Origin: an uncultured Paenibacillaceae bacterium
GTDB lineage: Bacteria > Bacillota > Bacilli > Paenibacillales > K13
Length of the DNA: 64,000 nucleotides
Assembly (NCBI GenBank): GCA_913056365.1
Contig: CAJXLT010000007.1
Coordinates: 1-64,000, forward strand
Direction of reading: 5' to 3'
Within the stretch, counting starts at the first letter, position 1; each line of letters opens with the position of its first letter. Below the pieces are notes generated by a model that was not told the DNA's origin, ran no database searches, and saw nothing but the letters and a program-made list of their open reading frames with translations. A program made the position numbers and the translations under genes. Positions 41,205 through 57,028 of the stretch are shown here, in pieces.

Positions 41205-41433
41205 ATTAATTCCCTCCTCAATCGAATATTGTCCCCTCAAGTGAAATGGTAGCATGAATAAATACATAATGCCTATCTCTCGGGCCGGAATTGGGAATCA
41301 ATGATTCGCATATTAGCGTTATGTCCCAATAGTTTAGACATTATGAATGACAAAGGAATGCTCAAAGTGCAAATAATTTGTCTGCTCCTGTTGCTTTCTG
41401 TCCAACTTCCTTATATAGTAAGGATAAAAATGA

Positions 41434-41535
41434 GCAAAAAGTCCCAAAGGGCAAACCTGTCGAAAGTCGGGGTCGCAAAACCAAGGGTCTAACGTGTTTA
41501 TCACTATGACAGCCGGTTGCTAAGAACTTTTTTCG
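41434..41535 (+). ncRNA. cyclic di-GMP-I riboswitch aptamer (GEMM) upstream of protease
   Basis: The GEMM-I core reads GGGCAAAC, CGAAAG, a G-rich segment, CGCAAA, GGGTCTAA and then GACAGCCGGTTGC in the conserved order. P1 is formed by AAAAAGT (near 41436) with ACTTTTTT (near 41526). Class-I aptamers bind c-di-GMP through this core. It precedes a terminator and the protease gene on the same strand, so it should control that gene by transcription termination. Confidence 0.88.
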
Positions 41536-41555
41536 CCTGCAATTATTGCAGTCTG

Positions 41556-41596
41556 GAAATCTCTTAAGCATGCGTGTATGAAGAGATTTTTTTTTA
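41556..41596 (+). terminator. expression-platform terminator of the first c-di-GMP riboswitch
   Basis: AAATCTCTT and AAGAGATTT form a perfect 9-bp stem around a 15-base loop, with a run of T residues at the 3' end, about 40 bases before the protease ATG. Whether ligand turns the gene on or off cannot be read safely from sequence. Confidence 0.8.
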
Positions 41597-41639
41597 TTTC
41601 ATAATAGTTTAACTCATAGATGATAAGGGAGAGATGGGT

Positions 41640-42797
41640 ATGTTGAAGAAGTCTATCGCTGGAATTATACTGTTTCTTATGTTTACGGGCTCCGTCTCAG
41701 CAGAGAGTTTGCATGGAGAGTATGACGGGAATGCCATTATCAAGATCACTTCAGGGGAACAAGAACTGATGGTAGAGGATGTACCGGCGCTAGCATTAGA
41801 CGGTCGTACCGTAGTACCTATCTATATGCTCAGAGAATTAGGTCTTGATGTGGAGTGGCTGGCAGAGGACAAGACCGTTCAGGTGAATAAGCCCGAGACA
41901 GAGAATGAACAACTCAAACAAATGATTACCGAAACAGGGAATGTAGAATTGTCCTACATAGGTGTGGAGTTAACTGCCACTGCTCTCGTGACAAAGGTAA
42001 ACGGTGAAGAAGAGGATTGGGCACTCATCTATCATACCTTACTGAATATGGCTGTATTACCTGCCGACGTATTATGTGTAGATTATGTCACAGAAGAAGG
42101 TTATTATATTGGTTCGTATTATGTGCAGCGACAGCCCTTTTTAGATTATGATGCTGGAGAATTGGATGATATCAGCAACTATTCATACACAGCAGGAAAT
42201 CTGATGCTGCCAGAATTGGAGACTGAGGAAATAGGCGAATTAAGCAATGCCGTCGGTGTGGTCATGTCCTATGATAAAGACGGGGATTTTCTTGGTCAAG
42301 GCTCCGGCTTCGTCATTCCTGGGGGCATGTTCATTACTAACTATCATGTTGTCGAGGATGCAGCCAAAATTGAAGTAGAGTTGGACGGCACGACATATGA
42401 TATAAGCGAATGGTATATATTCGAGAATCAATACTTGGATTTGTATGGTGCCGAACTCTCCACATCGTACGATGAGAACGGAGAGCCAACGGGCAAAATC
42501 CCTGATCATGCTCTTATGTATGAAACCGAAATGCCGAAGATGGGACAAAAGGTCTATGCAATCGGCAGTCCAAACGGGTTGGAAAATACATTATCGGAGG
42601 GCATCGTCTCTTCGATTCGCGAAATCGATGGAATCACTTACATTCAGCATAGTGCAGATACGGAGCCAGGTTCTAGTGGAGGTGCTTTGCTGGACAGCAA
42701 AGGTCGGGTTATTGGGGTGACGACAATGGGGATTGAAGGAACGACACTGGACTTTGCCATTCCGATCCATTATGTCATTAATGAGCTGGTATACTAG
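41640..42797 (+). CDS. secreted trypsin-like serine protease (S1C type) with copper-amine-oxidase-N-like domain
   Basis: 385 residues from ATG 41640 (AAGGGAGAG upstream). Signal peptide ending near SVSAES. Residues ~25-90 resemble the stalk domain of copper amine oxidase N-terminal type (ALALDGRTVVPIYMLRELGL). A middle region of unknown fold precedes a trypsin-like protease with His236 (TNYHVVEDA), Asp267 (YLDLYG) and Ser346 (PGSSGGALL). No PDZ domain follows, unlike DegP/HtrA. It likely cleaves surface or exported proteins. The 5' leader is a c-di-GMP-I riboswitch, linking the protease to the sessile/motile switch. Confidence 0.88.
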   Translation: MLKKSIAGIILFLMFTGSVSAESLHGEYDGNAIIKITSGEQELMVEDVPALALDGRTVVPIYMLRELGLDVEWLAEDKTVQVNKPETENEQLKQMITETGNVELSYIGVELTATALVTKVNGEEEDWALIYHTLLNMAVLPADVLCVDYVTEEGYYIGSYYVQRQPFLDYDAGELDDISNYSYTAGNLMLPELETEEIGELSNAVGVVMSYDKDGDFLGQGSGFVIPGGMFITNYHVVEDAAKIEVELDGTTYDISEWYIFENQYLDLYGAELSTSYDENGEPTGKIPDHALMYETEMPKMGQKVYAIGSPNGLENTLSEGIVSSIREIDGITYIQHSADTEPGSSGGALLDSKGRVIGVTTMGIEGTTLDFAIPIHYVINELVY

Positions 42798-42859
42798 ATT
42801 GATGATTGATATTGCCGATATCTGTAGAATACTGACGATGAAGTTGGTATAATACTAGA

Positions 42860-42952
42860 TAGCAATAGCGAAGAGGGCAAACTATTCGAAAGGATAGGAC
42901 GCAAAGCTACAGGGGCTTCTTCTACATGAAAAGCCAGCCAGCTGCACGTTGA
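42860..42952 (+). ncRNA. cyclic di-GMP-I riboswitch aptamer upstream of chemoreceptor
   Basis: The conserved order is again GGGCAAAC, CGAAAG, GGACGCAAAGC, a hairpin around CAGGGGCTTC, and GCCAGCCAGCTGC. A TATAAT -10 lies at 42849-42854. It precedes a strong terminator and an MCP gene, the classic target of this riboswitch class in other bacteria. It starts only about 60 bases after the protease stop. Confidence 0.9.
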
Positions 42953-42956
42953 GAGA

Positions 42957-42988
42957 GGACTGCCCCCACTATAGGGGCAGTCTTTTCA
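42957..42988 (+). terminator. expression-platform terminator of the second c-di-GMP riboswitch
   Basis: GACTGCCCC and GGGGCAGTC form a perfect 9-bp stem with a 7-base loop, followed by TTTTC. It lies about 42 bases before the MCP start. Confidence 0.85.
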
Positions 42989-43029
42989 TGCTACTACACA
43001 ACTTGGTAAGACAGAGGAGATGGACTCGG

Positions 43030-44748
43030 ATGGGCAAATGGTTAAACAAGTTTAGATTCAAAAATATGTCATTAGGAAGGAAGTATGCAATCCCTTTAGG
43101 GATCACGATTGTATTGTTTGCGGCATCAACTGTACTAGTAGCTATTTTGTTGAGTCAAGTGAATGAAGATATAAATGCGGTCGAGCGCAGAGGCGAGCGA
43201 GCGTTGAAAATGAACGAGATGGCGTCGTTGTTCCGTTCCAAGGATATTCGAATCGCTGATTTCATCCAAACAATGGAGATTGACTTCATTACTCAGTTCC
43301 AAGATCGTAGAGATAGCTTCAATACGCTCGAGCAGGAAATCCGCGATAGAATGGATACGGAGGAGCAGCAAGAAGTATTCAATCAAATCATTGAAAATGA
43401 CAGGAAAATTAGTAACTTGTTCTTGGAGAAAATCATTCCGGCGTTGAATATGAATGATACGGAAGAAGCGTTGCGGTTAAGAGCGGAAACTTCATCCTTG
43501 CGAGCGGAGACCGTTGATCTGCTTGACGAGCTTATCGAAATCGTCAACAATGAGCGTCAATTAGCGGTCGATCAAGCTAAGTCGCAAGCTAAGCTCTCGC
43601 TCATTATGCTCATAGCTTCGATAGTGATTGCCTTGCTGTTGAGCCTAGTCATCTTCTATTTCATCAATCGCTTGATCAATCGCAATATTAAGGAAGTTAT
43701 AGAAATTAGCGGAGAGATCGCCGAAGGTAATCTGAACGTGCGCTCGATTACATATGATAGTACGGATGAGATCGGTCAATTAGCGAAGACTGTGAACTTC
43801 ATGAGTGAGAGTCTGCGGGAGATGGTCAAAGGTATCGCATCTATCTCGCAAACGGTGTCCAGCCAAAGTGAGGAGCTGACACAAATGTCCAGAGAGGTGA
43901 AGGCAGGAAGCGAGCAAATCGCGACAACGATGCAGGAGCTGGCTTCCGGAACCGAGGTTCAGGCACGCTCCGCTACTGAGATTGCCGAGCTGGTCGATAC
44001 GCTGAATGAACAGGTTGCTGTGTCCAACCGGGATGGCGACGCTTTGAACGATGCCTCGGCAACTGTGCTGAGCCAATCAACGAGCGGCACGGCTCAGATG
44101 GCGCAAACAGCCGGACAAATGTCAGCCATTAACGGTGTTGTGCAGGATGCGCTGAGCAAGATGCAAAACTTAGAGCAAAGCACGAATAATATATCGAATC
44201 TGGTACAAGTGATTCAAGAGATTGCATCACAGACGAACTTGCTGTCGCTGAATGCATCCATCGAAGCAGCCCGCGCAGGCGAACATGGAAGCGGCTTTGC
44301 CGTAGTGGCATCCGAGGTGAAGAAGCTGTCTGAGCAAGTCGGTGAATCCGTCCAGGAAGTAACGGGCATCATTATGGACATTCAACAAGATACGAAGGTG
44401 ATGGTTGAGTCCCTGCAGAGCGGTTATGAAGAAGTAACTGCAGGCACGCAGTCGATGAATGCTACGAAGGAAACGTTCGACAGCATTACGGAAGCGGTCA
44501 ATCAGATGGTAGAGCGCATCGGGAGTGTATCGATGGGGCTGAAGGCGATCAGCACGCATGGTGCGAAGATTGGAACGACGAGTCAAGAGATTGCTTCGGT
44601 GACGGAGCAGGGTGCAGCAGGTGTGGAGCAAACTTCGGCATCCGCACAGCAACAGAACAGTTCAATGGAGGAAATTTCAAGCAGTTCAGAGCATTTGGCT
44701 GTGCTTGCAGAGGAACTGAATCAGATGGTCAGCAAGTTTAAACTCTAA
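43030..44748 (+). CDS. methyl-accepting chemotaxis protein (4HB type)
   Basis: 572 residues from ATG 43030 (CAGAGGAGA 9 bases upstream); in-frame codons further upstream lie within the terminator. Helix 1 near 20-40, a four-helix-bundle ligand domain of ~150 residues, helix 2 near 195-217, HAMP, then a long MCP signalling coiled coil with hairpin tip [20 protein letters not shown]. The ligand is unknown; 4HB domains bind small molecules directly or through partners. It reports to CheA/CheW, which are not in this window. Riboswitch control means receptor abundance follows c-di-GMP. The cellulase gene follows on the same strand. Confidence 0.93.
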
Positions 44749-44895: not shown

Positions 44896-44909
44896 TGAAA
44901 GCGATTGCA
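44896..44909 (+). promoter_or_regulatory. cre site (CcpA operator)
   Basis: TGAAAGCGATTGCA matches the cre consensus TGWAANCGNTNWCA at 13 of 14 positions and overlaps the spacer of the putative cellulase promoter, so carbon catabolite repression by CcpA is expected. Confidence 0.65.
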
Positions 44910-45070: not shown

Positions 45071-48000
45071 ATGTTAAGTTATCGACTGGTATACCGAAAG
45101 AGTCTGTTGTTCTTGATTATGGTATCAATGGTATTGGGCAGCTTCCTTGCTGCATTCGCACCGAAAGCATTAGCAGCGGAGCCGCATGTTGACAATCCGT
45201 TCGTAGGCGCAACGGCTTATATTAATCCAGATTATGCTGATTTGATCGACACGTCGATTGCACAGACAAGCGACAGCGACTTGGCTGCTCGAATGGAAAC
45301 AGTCAAATCCTATCCTACTGCTGTCTGGCTGGATCGAATCGCTGCCATTCATGGTGGACAGGCGAATGCCGGACGGAAGAGCTTAGAGGATCATCTTGAT
45401 CTGGCATTAGCACAAAAAGAACCCGGCGTGCCGATTACAGCGACGATCGTTATTTATGATCTTCCGGGTCGGGACTGTTCGGCATTGGCATCCAATGGAG
45501 AGCTGCCGCTGACGCAGGCTGGACTGGATCGGTACAAAGCTGAATATATTGATCCCATAACAGAGGTGTTCGCCAAACCCAAATTTGAAGATATTCGCAT
45601 CGTAACAGTCATTGAGCCGGATGGGTTGCCTAACCTCGTGACGAACTTAAGCGATCCAGAGTGTGCGCAAGCGAATTCCAGCGGCATTCAAGTAGAGGCT
45701 GTGCAGTATGCATTGGACGAGCTGCATGCGATTCCGAACGTATATATATACATGGACATTGCGCATTCCGGCTGGTTAGGCTGGGATAACAACCTGCAAG
45801 GAGTTGTCCAGCTGTATACACAGGTTGTGCAGGGAACTGCAGCAGGCTTCAACAGCATCGATGGATTCGTTACGAACGTGTCGAACTACACACCTGTAGA
45901 GGAACCGTTCTTGCCGAATCCGAATTTGAATGTAGGCGGGCAGCAAATACGGAGCTCGAACTATTATGAGTGGAATCCAATCTTCGATGAAGCGGACTTT
46001 ACGGATGCGTTGCACAATCAATTCGTAAATTCAGGCTTCCCGACTGATATTGGCTTCTTGATCGATACGTCTCGCAACGGCTGGGGCGGTGACGATCGGC
46101 CGACTGCTGTCTCGACTTCTACGAATCTGAATACGTATGTGAACGAAAGCAAGATTGATCTGAGAGAGCATCGCGGGCTCTGGTGTAATGTGGACGGTGC
46201 AGGAATAGGCGAACCGCCTACAGCATCACCGGCCGGTTACGCCAATGTTGATGCATTCGTATGGGTGAAGCCGCCGGGTGAATCAGACGGGGCTAGTGAA
46301 GATATTCCGAACGATGAGGGCAAGAATGCCGATCCGAACTGCGATCCGACGTATACGAACGGCGGAGGAGCGGGAGTGCCGACAGGAGCTATGGATAATG
46401 CTCCGTTAGCGGGACATTGGTTCCATGAGCAGTTTGCCATGCTAGTGCGGAATGCTTCTCCTGTCATTCCTACATCTGATATAGGTCCGATTGAGGTACC
46501 AGATGCACCGACTGGCTTGACTGCATCGGCAGGAGACGGTCAAGTGAGCTTGAACTGGAGCGCATCGAGCGGTGCGACGAGCTATACGGTGAAGCGCGCA
46601 AGCAGCGCGAGCGGTCCTTATACGGATATAGCCAATGTTAGTGCGACGAGCTATATCGATACAGGTCTGACGAACGATACGACATATTACTATGTCGTGA
46701 GCGCGTCGAACAGCGCGGGCACTAGCGCTGACTCGTCGTCCGCGAGTGCGACTCCAAGCGAGGATCAAGAGCCGCAAGTTCCAGCTGTGCCGACTGGATT
46801 AACGATAGCAGCAGGTGACGGGGAACTGTCCTTGATCTGGAACAGCGCCAGCGGTGCGGACAGCTATTCAGTGAAGCGTGCAACAGTGAGTGGCGGTCCG
46901 TATACGAACGTAGCGAATGTCAGTGCGACGAGCTACACAGATACAAGCGTAACGAATGGTACGACGTATTACTATGTCGTAAGCGCGACGAACAGCGCTG
47001 GAAGCAGTGCTGACTCATCGGAAGTGAATGCGATGCCGGAAGGTTCGATAACACCTCCAACCGGATTGCGTGTAGAGTACAAAGCAGCAGACACGAGCGC
47101 AACAGACAATCAGATGAAGCCGCATCTGCGCATCGTGAATGATAGCAGCAGCACAGTGAATCTGAGCGATCTGACTATACGCTACTGGTATACGAAAGAT
47201 TCTGCGCAAGCGGACAACTTCAATTGTGACTGGTCTGGCATCGGTTGTGCGAACATAAGCGGCAGCTTCGCGAGCATGACTTCGCCGACAGCAGATGCGG
47301 ATGCGTATCTGGAAGTAAGCTTCAGCTCCGGTGCAGGCAGCGTGGCAGCAGGCAGCACGAGTGACGAAATACAAGCGCGCGTGAACCGTAGTGATTGGAG
47401 CAGCTACAACGAAAGCAATGATTATTCCTACAATGCTGCACAAACATCGTTCGGTTCGAACGATCATGTGACCTTGTATCGTAATGGTCAGTTAGTATAC
47501 GGGATAGAGCCAGGTGGCGGTACGGTTGATCCTGATCCGACAGCCCCTGCTGTGCCGGCAGGCTTGACAGCGAGTGCCGGTGATGGACAAGTAAGCTTGA
47601 GCTGGAATGCTTCTTCTGGAGCAACTAGCTACAGTGTGAAGCGTGCAACGGCTTCGGGTGGCGCTTATACGACTGTTGCTGCCAATGTGACAACAACTGG
47701 CTACACAGATACAGCAGTGACGAACGGCACAACCTACTATTATGTTGTGAGTGCCTCCAATCAGGTTGGGGAGAGCGCGAATTCTGCTCAAGTCCAAGCG
47801 CAGCCGACCGGCACGAATAATCCAGCCGAGCTGTCGGACGATATTCGCGTGAACCAGATTGGCTACTTGCCGGAAGCAGACAAGATTGCGACCGTGCTGA
47901 ACAGCTCGACTAGCCCGTTGCAATGGGAATTGCGCAGTACCGCAGACAATTCTACGGTATTAACTGGTCAAACGAGCGTGTACGGGTTGGACCAAGCATC

Positions 48001-50566
48001 TGGTGATCATGTGCATCATGCTGATTTCACGGCAGCGAGCGTACAAGGCACCTATACATTATATGTGGCTAATATGGGGGAAAGTGTTGCGTTCGAAATT
48101 GGTACAGATCTATACTCGAATCTCCCTGAAGAAGCAATGGAATACTTCTACTTCCATCGCATGGGTGCTCCAGTCGAAGGCCAATATTTAACGAACCCGT
48201 CATTCGCGCATGCAGCCCTGCATCCAGGAGATGATCAAATTTCCTGTTATGGCAACTGGTGCAATGGGGATATTCTTGACGTCCGCTATTCTTGGGCAGA
48301 TGCGGGAGATTTCGGCATCTATGCGGTCAACCAAGCTATATCCGCATGGACGCTCTTGAACTTGTATGAGCGGAATCCACAAGCGTTCCCAGACGGTTCC
48401 TTGAATATCCCGGAGAGCGGGAACGGCATTCCAGACATTCTGGATGAGGTCAAGTTCGGTTCAACCTTTATGAACGGTATGCTCCCACCATCTGGCGGGT
48501 TAGCGTCCCATAAAGTGCACAATGAGAATTGGAGTGCGTTCCCGCTGACCGATATTAATGCTGAAAACAATCAAGCGAGATTTGCGCAACCTCCTTCAAC
48601 GAATGCAACCTATGCGGTAGCTCGCAATTTGGCGCATTTGGCAAGAGTGCTTCATCCTTACGACGCCGTGTATGCGCAAGAGCTGTGGGGCATAGCTGAG
48701 GATGCTTGGTCAAGAGCAGAGGCGAATCCGAATGTAGATTATTCCGACACTGTATCCGACTCTGCAGGCGGCGGTGATTACGGCGATGCGGTCAACAGCG
48801 ACGATCAATATGCTGCAGCAGTAGAGATGTATTTGACCGCATACGCGCTAAGTGATGCTACAGATGTCTATTACCTGAGCGCAGCAGCGAGCTCTCCGCA
48901 TTATTTGGAAATTAGCGATTTCTATTGGGGGTATGTTGCAGGACTAGGTACATTGTCCTTATTAGCGGCTCCTAATAATCTACCGGCAGCAGATGTGGCT
49001 CAGCTCGAATCCAATGTGCTGACAGAAGCTGACGGCATCGTATCGACGCTGAATGGGGAAGGATACCCATCCTTACTTCCAGGCAACGATGATTATCCAT
49101 GGGGTTCTAACTCCATTATTGTCAACAAGATGGTAATCTTGGCTTATGCCTATGAGGTTAGTCAAGATGAGAAGTATCTGAAAGCGCTCCATCGGGCAAT
49201 GGATTACATGATGGGCAACAATGCGATGAAGCTGTCCTATGTGACCGGCTATGGCGAAGCTTCGGAGACCGATACGCATGATCGGTGGGCATGGGGCAAG
49301 TATCAGAGCGGCATCTCCTACCCGAAAGGATGGTTGTCCGGTGGTCCGATGAGCGAATATTCGGGCTGCGATTCTGTAACCCCTTATGTGGAAGCGGCGA
49401 AATCTTATGCTCCTGCCAATACGGCACCGGACGCATGGTGCTCCAAGGAAAACACGATCAATTGGAATGCGCCGTTGGCATGGGTGGCGGATTTCATTGA
49501 GGATACACAGGACGACTTGGCAGGCGGAACGGTCGATCCGACTGAGCCTGCTGCACCAACGGGAGTGACAGCAAGTGCAGGAGATGGACAAGTATCCCTG
49601 AGCTGGAACGTCTCGACCGGAGCAGACAGCTACAACGTGAAGCGTGCAACGTCAGCAGGCGGGGCATATACGACTATCGCTGCTAACGTAACGTCTACGA
49701 GCTATGTGGATACGAATGTGACGAACGGTACGACGTATTACTATGTGGTGAGTGCATCCAACCAGGTAGGTGAAAGCGCCAATTCTGCACAAGTCAGTGC
49801 GACACCGCAAAGCTCCATAACGGCGCCAGCGGTGCCAACGGGAGTGACAGCAAGTGCAGGTGACGGACAAGTATCCCTGAGCTGGAACGCCTCGAGCGGA
49901 GCAGACAGCTACAGCGTGAAGCGTGCAACGTCAGCAGGCGGTGCATATACGACTATCGCTGCTAACGTTACGTCCGCTAGCTATATAGATACGAACGTGA
50001 CGAACGGCACGACGTATTATTATGTGGTGAGCGCAGCCAATAGCGCGGGAGAAAGCGCGAACTCCAGTGAAGTGAGCGCGACACCGCAAGGAGTAGTGGA
50101 TCCGCCTCCAGGCGACCTCGCTGTGCAGTATCATGTTGGCGACACTAGCGCGACAGATAATCAAATGAAGCCTTATATGCGAATTGTGAACAACGGTTCA
50201 AGCAGTGTTGCGTTAAGTGAATTAACGATCCGTTACTACTTCTCCCAAGATACGGCGATTGCACAAAGTATCTTCTGCGACTGGGCTACAGTAGGGTGCG
50301 CGAATGTGCAAACACAAGCTGTTGCGCTGGCGTCTCCGGTCAATGGAGCGACACATTATATTGAAGTGAGCTATGCCAGCGGCGCAGGATCACTTGCTGC
50401 GGGAGCCAACAGTGGCGATCTTCAGCTTCGCATTCACAATAACGATTGGAGCAACTTCGCTGAAGCAGATGACTATTCCTATGACGCGACGCTATCTTCG
50501 TTCACCGATTGGAATCGTGTCACGCTCTATCAAGATGGACAGTTGGTGTGGGGAATAGAGCCATAG
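45071..50566 (+). CDS. bifunctional multidomain cellulase GH6-Fn3-Fn3-CBM3-Fn3-GH9-Fn3-Fn3-CBM3
   Basis: 1,831 residues, secreted (signal peptide to about ALAA, residue 36). GH6 domain ~37-470 with Asp135 in LPGRDCSA and Asp184 in IEPDGLP. Fn3 ~476-560 and ~573-655; CBM3 ~660-815; Fn3 ~826-913. A cellulase N-terminal Ig domain (~920-1005) leads to GH9 ~1013-1477 with Asp1077 and Asp1080 in WADAGDFG and acid Glu1460 in SKENTINWNAP. Fn3 ~1491-1578 and ~1585-1674; CBM3 ~1680-1831. GH6 inverts from chain ends or as endoglucanase, GH9 usually acts as a processive endoglucanase; together with crystalline-cellulose binding this is a one-chain cellulase system. No dockerin or SLH anchor, so it is released. 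Two cre sites and a conserved element lie upstream. Confidence 0.95.
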   Translation: MLSYRLVYRKSLLFLIMVSMVLGSFLAAFAPKALAAEPHVDNPFVGATAYINPDYADLIDTSIAQTSDSDLAARMETVKSYPTAVWLDRIAAIHGGQANAGRKSLEDHLDLALAQKEPGVPITATIVIYDLPGRDCSALASNGELPLTQAGLDRYKAEYIDPITEVFAKPKFEDIRIVTVIEPDGLPNLVTNLSDPECAQANSSGIQVEAVQYALDELHAIPNVYIYMDIAHSGWLGWDNNLQGVVQLYTQVVQGTAAGFNSIDGFVTNVSNYTPVEEPFLPNPNLNVGGQQIRSSNYYEWNPIFDEADFTDALHNQFVNSGFPTDIGFLIDTSRNGWGGDDRPTAVSTSTNLNTYVNESKIDLREHRGLWCNVDGAGIGEPPTASPAGYANVDAFVWVKPPGESDGASEDIPNDEGKNADPNCDPTYTNGGGAGVPTGAMDNAPLAGHWFHEQFAMLVRNASPVIPTSDIGPIEVPDAPTGLTASAGDGQVSLNWSASSGATSYTVKRASSASGPYTDIANVSATSYIDTGLTNDTTYYYVVSASNSAGTSADSSSASATPSEDQEPQVPAVPTGLTIAAGDGELSLIWNSASGADSYSVKRATVSGGPYTNVANVSATSYTDTSVTNGTTYYYVVSATNSAGSSADSSEVNAMPEGSITPPTGLRVEYKAADTSATDNQMKPHLRIVNDSSSTVNLSDLTIRYWYTKDSAQADNFNCDWSGIGCANISGSFASMTSPTADADAYLEVSFSSGAGSVAAGSTSDEIQARVNRSDWSSYNESNDYSYNAAQTSFGSNDHVTLYRNGQLVYGIEPGGGTVDPDPTAPAVPAGLTASAGDGQVSLSWNASSGATSYSVKRATASGGAYTTVAANVTTTGYTDTAVTNGTTYYYVVSASNQVGESANSAQVQAQPTGTNNPAELSDDIRVNQIGYLPEADKIATVLNSSTSPLQWELRSTADNSTVLTGQTSVYGLDQASGDHVHHADFTAASVQGTYTLYVANMGESVAFEIGTDLYSNLPEEAMEYFYFHRMGAPVEGQYLTNPSFAHAALHPGDDQISCYGNWCNGDILDVRYSWADAGDFGIYAVNQAISAWTLLNLYERNPQAFPDGSLNIPESGNGIPDILDEVKFGSTFMNGMLPPSGGLASHKVHNENWSAFPLTDINAENNQARFAQPPSTNATYAVARNLAHLARVLHPYDAVYAQELWGIAEDAWSRAEANPNVDYSDTVSDSAGGGDYGDAVNSDDQYAAAVEMYLTAYALSDATDVYYLSAAASSPHYLEISDFYWGYVAGLGTLSLLAAPNNLPAADVAQLESNVLTEADGIVSTLNGEGYPSLLPGNDDYPWGSNSIIVNKMVILAYAYEVSQDEKYLKALHRAMDYMMGNNAMKLSYVTGYGEASETDTHDRWAWGKYQSGISYPKGWLSGGPMSEYSGCDSVTPYVEAAKSYAPANTAPDAWCSKENTINWNAPLAWVADFIEDTQDDLAGGTVDPTEPAAPTGVTASAGDGQVSLSWNVSTGADSYNVKRATSAGGAYTTIAANVTSTSYVDTNVTNGTTYYYVVSASNQVGESANSAQVSATPQSSITAPAVPTGVTASAGDGQVSLSWNASSGADSYSVKRATSAGGAYTTIAANVTSASYIDTNVTNGTTYYYVVSAANSAGESANSSEVSATPQGVVDPPPGDLAVQYHVGDTSATDNQMKPYMRIVNNGSSSVALSELTIRYYFSQDTAIAQSIFCDWATVGCANVQTQAVALASPVNGATHYIEVSYASGAGSLAAGANSGDLQLRIHNNDWSNFAEADDYSYDATLSSFTDWNRVTLYQDGQLVWGIEP
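49557..50095 (+). repeat. near-identical tandem Fn3 coding repeats
   Basis: The two Fn3 units before the final CBM3 start about 279 bases apart and share long identical DNA stretches, including the CCAACGGGAGTGACAGCAAG start and AAGCGTGCAACGTCAGCAGG. Three more diverged copies lie at about 46500, 46790 and 47550. Recent duplication or gene conversion within the gene is likely. Confidence 0.75.
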
Positions 50567-50663: not shown

Positions 50664-50908
50664 GATAGCGGGGTATTGTGCGTATACATGAAGTACAGCA
50701 AATCTATGAACACCTGCACGAAACATATTTTAAATATTCAATTAATTCAGTCAATGTGTTAAAATATACCTATCTATGCGTAACAACACGATTCACACGC
50801 TATTCAATTTCCTGACAGGGAGTTGGTTAGGCGTCTATTTCACCATAGCCATGCAGTTGCAGTTAACTCAATGTGTACATACCAATACGGAGAAGGAGGA
50901 ATTTGTGT

Positions 50909-56850: not shown

Positions 56851-56879
56851 AGGGTCGATTCATCTGAATTGCATACGAA

Positions 56880-56972
56880 ACATGGGGGCTTGCGGAAGCA
56901 GGCTGAGAGTACGGCTATACCGTCGTTAACCATCTGAACCTGTTTGGGTAATGCCAGCGTAGGGAATTTGCA
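56880..56972 (+). ncRNA. TPP riboswitch (THI element)
   Basis: The conserved THI-box segments appear in order: GGGGGCTTGCGG, GGCTGAGAGTACGG, ACCATCTGAACCTG, and GGGTAATGCCAGCGTAGGGA. It binds thiamine pyrophosphate and, through the hairpins directly downstream, should stop transcription of the thiamine genes when TPP is plentiful. Confidence 0.95.
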
Positions 56973-57028
56973 AGCGAGCAATCTTGCTCGCGCATGCACA
57001 ATGTCTACGCGGCATTGTGCATTTTTTA
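56973..57028 (+). terminator. TPP riboswitch terminator
   Basis: A GCGAGCAA..TTGCTCGC hairpin (about 56974-56991) is followed by TGCACAATG paired with CATTGTGCA (56995-57021) and six T residues. The second is a textbook intrinsic terminator and forms the off-state platform. Confidence 0.88.

Follow-up and report, generated by a model that had tools for sequence, protein, structure and literature searches.

Two c-di-GMP-I riboswitch aptamers in the leaders of neighbouring protease and chemoreceptor genes of an uncultured Paenibacillaceae bacterium

The stretch of DNA considered here, called the window throughout, comprises 64,000 nucleotides (nt) from an uncultured member of the Paenibacillaceae (contig CAJXLT010000007.1 of GenBank assembly GCA_913056365.1, positions 1 to 64,000). 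Its forward strand carries a gene for a secreted HtrA-like serine protease, followed by a gene for a chemoreceptor of the methyl-accepting chemotaxis protein (MCP) type and by a large cellulase gene. In front of the first two genes lie elements that match the class I riboswitch for cyclic diguanosine monophosphate (c-di-GMP), also known as GEMM-I. The reading that we favour, and regard as fairly probable, is that of two independent c-di-GMP-I riboswitches, each located in the 5' leader of its own gene and working as an OFF switch, with the cellulase standing apart.

When the full window was scanned with the Rfam covariance models, three RNA matches passed their thresholds, and the c-di-GMP-I family RF01051 accounts for two of these (Table 1). 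Both exceed the gathering score of 35 bits and span the model from end to end (model positions 1-87), and a chance match is excluded because of their E values. In both aptamers model position 11 is G and position 38 is A (bases 41450 and 41477 in aptamer 1, 42876 and 42903 in aptamer 2), and position 83 is C according to the Rfam alignment. For Bc1, a GEMM-I element of the Bacillus cereus group, the residues G11, A38 and C81 are described as predicted ligand contacts that correspond to G20, A47 and C92 of Vc2 in passages of PMC11218506. The matching of RF01051 model positions to these contact positions is our own. The G at the equivalent of Vc2 G20 presumably also speaks against a variant of the cyclic GMP-AMP (cGAMP) type. 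Scores and kept contact bases together form a strong case that both elements are c-di-GMP-I riboswitch aptamers, and the initial annotation, which had reported two GEMM-I aptamers with a complete core, is confirmed on this point. They share with their class the whole aptamer, the score range, the ligand-contact positions and an expression platform of the terminator type; no difference was found in the aptamer, and only the controlled gene differs.

Each aptamer is followed by a hairpin that would act as a terminator. A consensus terminator scan, which demands loops of 3-8 bases and then at least five T in eight bases, lists neither of them. The leaders were folded at growing lengths to mimic the state before the 3' arm of the terminator has been made. 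At lengths of 139, 145, 151 and 157 the lowest-energy fold of leader 1 has an antiterminator, which at the last two lengths comes with a refolded aptamer, and leader 2 has one at lengths 114 and 119. The predicted antiterminator 1 occupies C41520 (model position 83), three of the seven 3' bases of the P1 helix and most of the 5' arm of terminator 1; as a hairpin alone it has a z score of -3.06, with none of 200 shuffles as stable. When the aptamer pairs were enforced, and in leader 1 those of P1 as well, the antiterminator helices disappeared from both leaders and the terminator still formed. Because pairing of the terminator 5' arm with upstream bases is incompatible with a closed aptamer, both leaders are most simply explained as OFF switches that would leave their genes on at low c-di-GMP; this direction, deduced from folds whose controls are mixed, is probable.

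Table 1 Features of the protease and chemoreceptor leaders and genes
Feature	Position	Strand	Evidence
GEMM-I aptamer 1, protease leader	41440-41524	+	RF01051, 70.1 bits, E 1.1e-11
P1 helix closing aptamer 1	41436-41442 (AAAAAGT) with 41526-41532 (ACTTTTT)	+	Sequence; 7 consecutive pairs
Predicted antiterminator hairpin 1	41518-41570 (41519-41535 with 41554-41569; one more pair when folded alone)	+	Folds of truncated leaders
Intrinsic terminator 1	41556-41590 (41556-41565 with 41581-41590), T-rich tail	+	z -2.33; 3 of 200 shuffles as stable
Secreted HtrA-like (S1C-type) serine protease, 387 residues	41634-42797	+	Trypsin_2, 5.1e-22; signal-like N terminus
Extended -10 promoter-like box TGGTATAAT, chemoreceptor	42845-42853	+	By eye; TGCTATAAT in sister genome
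GEMM-I aptamer 2, chemoreceptor leader	42866-42949	+	RF01051, 64.5 bits, E 2.5e-10
Predicted antiterminator 2	42912-42966 (42912-42923, aptamer P3, with 42954-42966, terminator 5' arm)	+	Folds of truncated leaders
Terminator hairpin 2, 14 pairs	42953-42987	+	z -6.72; 0 of 200 shuffles as stable
Methyl-accepting chemotaxis protein, 572 residues	43030-44748	+	HAMP PF00672, 1.4e-15; MCPsignal PF00015, 1.7e-39

The genus (and family) sample consists of two genomes, that of the window and a sister genome (G001), which allows a single comparison of leader 2. The sister has AGAGGACTGCCC (terminator 2, 5' arm) and GGGGCTTCTTC (P3) unaltered and a changed 3' arm, and these two sequences still pair (-17.5 kcal/mol in the window versus -13.8 in the sister); antiterminator 2 keeps 11 of 12 bases in its first strand and 12 of 13 in its second. 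A nearly unchanged 5' arm and P3 partner next to an altered 3' arm fit a 5' arm with two functions. Several results weigh against the OFF interpretation. In the truncated folds of the sister leader 2, the terminator arm pairs with the 5' GGGCA of the aptamer instead, which disrupts the aptamer, yet by a different helix. Antiterminator hairpin 2 reaches only z -1.69 (matched in stability by 14 of 200 shuffles), the entire leader 1 does not exceed its shuffles in stability (z -0.16; 89 of 200), and the T run of terminator 2 is short and lies within the stem, so that the earlier description of both hairpins as strong terminators holds for their stability but not for this poor T tract. The ligand-free minimum-energy fold of both complete leaders already holds the terminator, and the model therefore needs antitermination during transcription. 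Furthermore, when the part after the aptamer was shuffled with only the Rfam core pairs enforced, the energy gap between the free and the closed-aptamer fold was reached by 236-456 of 500 shuffles in leader 1, depending on length and with P1 left out, and by 96-437 of 500 in leader 2, which gives the antiterminator model no preference. A control devised after this negative outcome enforced P1, the helix with which antiterminator 1 competes, and shuffled only the stretch after P1; of 500 shuffles, those attaining the gap of leader 1 then numbered 154 at end 41568, 35 at end 41574 and 15 at end 41580.

The ligand-free terminators and the first shuffle control could also be accommodated if one or both elements were ON switches, in which binding of c-di-GMP prevents termination and the protease and/or the chemoreceptor are made in the sessile state. 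Gene activation has indeed been reported for Bc1, which according to the same source was later found to stay off in vivo whatever the c-di-GMP level (passages of PMC11218506), and both reports count against a simple OFF switch. With the aptamer pairs enforced, however, the terminators fold unhindered in both leaders, and their stems lie fully outside the aptamers, with no overlap seen through which a closed aptamer could block them; moreover, the class I switches of Clostridioides difficile are described as uniformly OFF in PMC6366702. We therefore consider ON control unlikely. The in vivo behaviour of Bc1 also suggests that the aptamers could be degenerate or locked, leaving the genes in practice unresponsive to c-di-GMP, and aptamer 1 does have a single U-U mismatch in each of two stems and a P1 that consists mainly of A-U pairs. 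Such a loss of response appears less likely still than ON control, as the scores are far over the cut-off, the three ligand-contact positions are kept and aptamer 2 is conserved in the sister (G001:C3:17457-17541, 70.0 bits).

A further interpretation, put forward in the initial annotation, is that protease, chemoreceptor and cellulase belong together as a single module under c-di-GMP control that serves to handle cellulose particles. The genes are adjacent on the same strand, and a set resembling an ATP-binding cassette (ABC) sugar transporter and a sensor kinase, both by family assignment only, are found nearby. The cellulase (45071-50566) is one protein of 1831 residues with GH6, GH9, two CBM3 and four fn3 stretches according to Pfam. 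It starts 322 nt past the chemoreceptor stop codon, and the gap contains a stable hairpin directly after the chemoreceptor (z -4.28; 0 of 200 shuffles) and a cre-like box, TGAAAGCGATTGCA, at 44896-44909, which is the only exact match in the window (three matches with one mismatch allowed, 0.87 expected). No c-di-GMP aptamer was found ahead of the cellulase in the Rfam scan of the window. The description of the genes as tandem thus has to be given up as well: they do not look like one tandem unit, since protease and chemoreceptor each have their own leader and the cellulase lies at a distance. In the sister genome, the order is sensor kinase, regulator, binding protein, two permeases, a small divergent gene, riboswitch with chemoreceptor, orthologs of the window genes at 50873, 51983 and 54319, and cellulase, leaving uncounted two short mechanically called frames in between. 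Eleven window proteins have orthologs on that stretch, with 76-91% identity (76% for the chemoreceptor). No protease ortholog was counted in the sister, because its best match (34% over the protease domain, E 1.6e-10) resembles the distant paralogs in the window genome itself. The match of the sister cellulase is confined to residues 2-920, its open frame has 1219 residues, and it seems to be a shorter protein than that of the window. The two genomes therefore have the riboswitch and chemoreceptor in common; the protease unit was either acquired in the lineage of the window or lost from that of the sister, and the cellulase stands at a different place. As far as gene order can tell, this shows that protease and cellulase are not fixed partners of the chemoreceptor; a single module was rejected on this ground and has very little probability left, and we infer that the cellulase is a separately controlled neighbour.

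Regarding the origin of the protease unit, no near match of positions 41268-44748, as expected for a mobile cassette, was present in the plasmid collection. Protein matches touch 635 plasmid and 13 phage records, none of which covers 80% of the protein, and those listed mostly concern the HtrA-type domain. There was also no sign of recent copying of aptamer 1 from aptamer 2 in the sole comparison made, that of the sister aptamer 2 with aptamer 1 of the window (33 bases at 76%).

The protease itself is best described as HtrA-like. His238, Asp269 and Ser348 are invariant in nine aligned orthologs and form, by the usual order in the family, a putative catalytic triad. A profile of the orthologs gave as best match the anti-sigma factor RsgI9 (PDB 7sjy, 1.9e-29), besides solved HtrA-type (S1C) proteases; the trypsin-like domain is common to all of these, and the match is limited to it. 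In Pfam there is a sub-threshold match to Cu_amine_oxidN1, and no PDZ family among the matches at E 0.001. None of the NCBIfam HtrA/Deg models reached its cut-off (TIGR02037 scores 86.9 versus 416.2 bits, over residues 218-383 only), and by these comparisons the protein would not belong to the HtrA/DegP (Do) family in the strict sense. A sigma-A promoter candidate for leader 1 (TTGCTT, then TATAGT 17 nt on, around 41391-41419) was seen by eye only and is absent from the promoter scan listing.

Translation of the chemoreceptor gene is placed at ATG 43030 and not at TTG 42949, because the TTG sits on the last base of the aptamer and the sister ortholog aligns from the later methionine (residue 1). 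That this riboswitch class can control chemoreceptors, as the initial annotation had stated, agrees with the frequent position of Bc1 ahead of MCP genes in the B. cereus group described in PMC11218506. Bc1 differs in having a long expression platform with two terminators, whereas the leaders in the window are short, with one terminator hairpin each. The consensus of flagellar (SigD-type) promoters is the basis of the pattern TARA-N15-GCCGATAT, which occurs once in the window, without mismatch (42795-42821); if one mismatch is tolerated, a match also turns up in 54 of 100 shuffles. The pattern TAAA-N14-16-GCCGATAW has no match in the window, TARA-N15-GCCGATAW occurs three times in the whole genome versus once for the reversed control, and the sister has GTCGCTTC at the position of GCCGATAT. 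A SigD-type promoter for the chemoreceptor was rejected for these reasons, i.e. frequent matches in shuffles, a low genome count and a motif changed in the sister, and the extended -10 box, which is kept there, appears to be the better candidate. The genome as a whole has 15 GGDEF and 5 flagellin matches. A strong imperfect inverted repeat at 42812-42866 spans the -10 box (z -4.62; 0 of 200 shuffles), and the corresponding stretch of the sister is unremarkable (z -0.45).

The riboswitch class is widespread in the order, where RF01051 is present in 334 of 392 genomes (that of the window included), and 39 of the 392 have a sequence that matches the protease, at least in part, at E 1e-20 or better. 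Among the nine protease orthologs for which the DNA was examined (that of the window and eight others), two have a GEMM-I aptamer: the window's and one in a genome of another family of the same order (G006). The leader in G006 is shorter and has a different layout, with 44 nt from aptamer to start codon; its truncated folds gave no clear terminator, and the direction of the switch is left uncalled. The protease frame in that genome (L075, 7546-9069) overlaps a downstream frame of 507 residues by one base, and the aptamer may control two genes. In a collection of named genomes, a single-protein query, which reaches close relatives only, found one protease ortholog, in Cohnella, without an aptamer.

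Genes downstream of aptamers were surveyed at 142 places, comprising 6 more in the window genome, 26 in G001 and G006, and 110 taken from the best-scoring of the matches listed, which biases the sample towards high scores. Three places without core or frame and seven with masked stretches were lost, leaving 132 proteins, in which one place is counted twice (L111 and L170); the choice of frames was mechanical, and some are wrong. One of the 132 is trypsin-like, namely the G006 ortholog, and 13 fall in the cluster that contains the chemoreceptors. When 20 of the 132 were run against Pfam, an M60 peptidase, a sortase and a transglutaminase-like protein were among the families found. At the place with the M60 peptidase (L113; aptamer at G359:C1:1355463-1355550), the frame after the aptamer also has an F5/8 type C domain; with it, two types of peptidase are seen behind GEMM-I in the order. 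A protease behind GEMM-I is thus rare in this sample, and not unique.

In the window genome, neighbouring sortase and transglutaminase-like genes each have a GEMM-I aptamer of their own (L082; G000:C1, aptamers at 992671-992770 and 993502-993587), and relatives of both occur behind aptamers in the sister (L187, L172). A table in PMC12452182 lists Bacillota transglutaminase-like genes behind tandem c-di-GMP-I aptamers. At another locus (L004; G000:C12:90549-92532) the frame behind a GEMM-I aptamer is long and includes a GGDEF domain; the same layout recurs in G001:C25, and feedback on c-di-GMP synthesis is possible. The Rfam scan of the window also placed a thiamine pyrophosphate (TPP) riboswitch at 56872-56982, barely above its cut-off (56.3 versus 54.3 bits).

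With aptamers, terminator hairpins and genes read from the DNA, the switching steps of the preferred OFF model would be as follows. At high c-di-GMP the ligand would hold the aptamer closed, through P1 in leader 1 and P3 in leader 2; the competing antiterminator would then be barred, the terminator would fold and transcription would stop. At low c-di-GMP an antiterminator made of aptamer bases and the 5' arm of the terminator would form first, and RNA polymerase would read into the gene. Chemoreceptor and secreted protease would thus be made in the motile, low c-di-GMP state, in which the protease might perhaps trim surface proteins as cells leave a surface.

The closest precedent is PPEP-1 (CD2830, ZmpI) of C. 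difficile, a secreted protease that frees two surface proteins and is controlled by a class I c-di-GMP switch (PMC11477304, PMC6366702). There, too, a secreted protease stands behind GEMM-I in a genome with the same switch class on motility genes. The initial annotation had regarded control of a secreted protease as unusual, which agrees with its rarity in the survey but not with this direct precedent; a c-di-GMP riboswitch with a trypsin-like protease was not found reported in the open-licence literature. The parallel is weakened by the facts that PPEP-1 belongs to the metalloproteases and has known substrates, which are wall-anchored and under inverse control by class II switches, and that the window protease, which appears from its domain matches to be of the Trypsin_2 or HtrA type and not of the PPEP-1 type, is a serine protease with no known substrate. 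It is conceivable, although doubtful, that the system is a convergent counterpart of the PPEP-1 circuit, in which an HtrA-like protease under an OFF switch sheds surface proteins as c-di-GMP falls, and sortase and transglutaminase genes behind GEMM-I aptamers elsewhere in the genome build or cross-link that surface.

In kind, the two elements are ordinary, as both are further representatives of an established riboswitch class, and the new part is the protease family that is controlled. An HtrA-like serine protease is thereby added to the genes behind c-di-GMP-I switches, for which PPEP-1 is the protease precedent found in print, and the close relative shows that a riboswitch-plus-gene unit can come or go beside a conserved one. 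As it stands, this is a modest extension of known biology; if it is true that the protease releases surface proteins at low c-di-GMP, the problem of dispersal would have been solved here independently of C. difficile.

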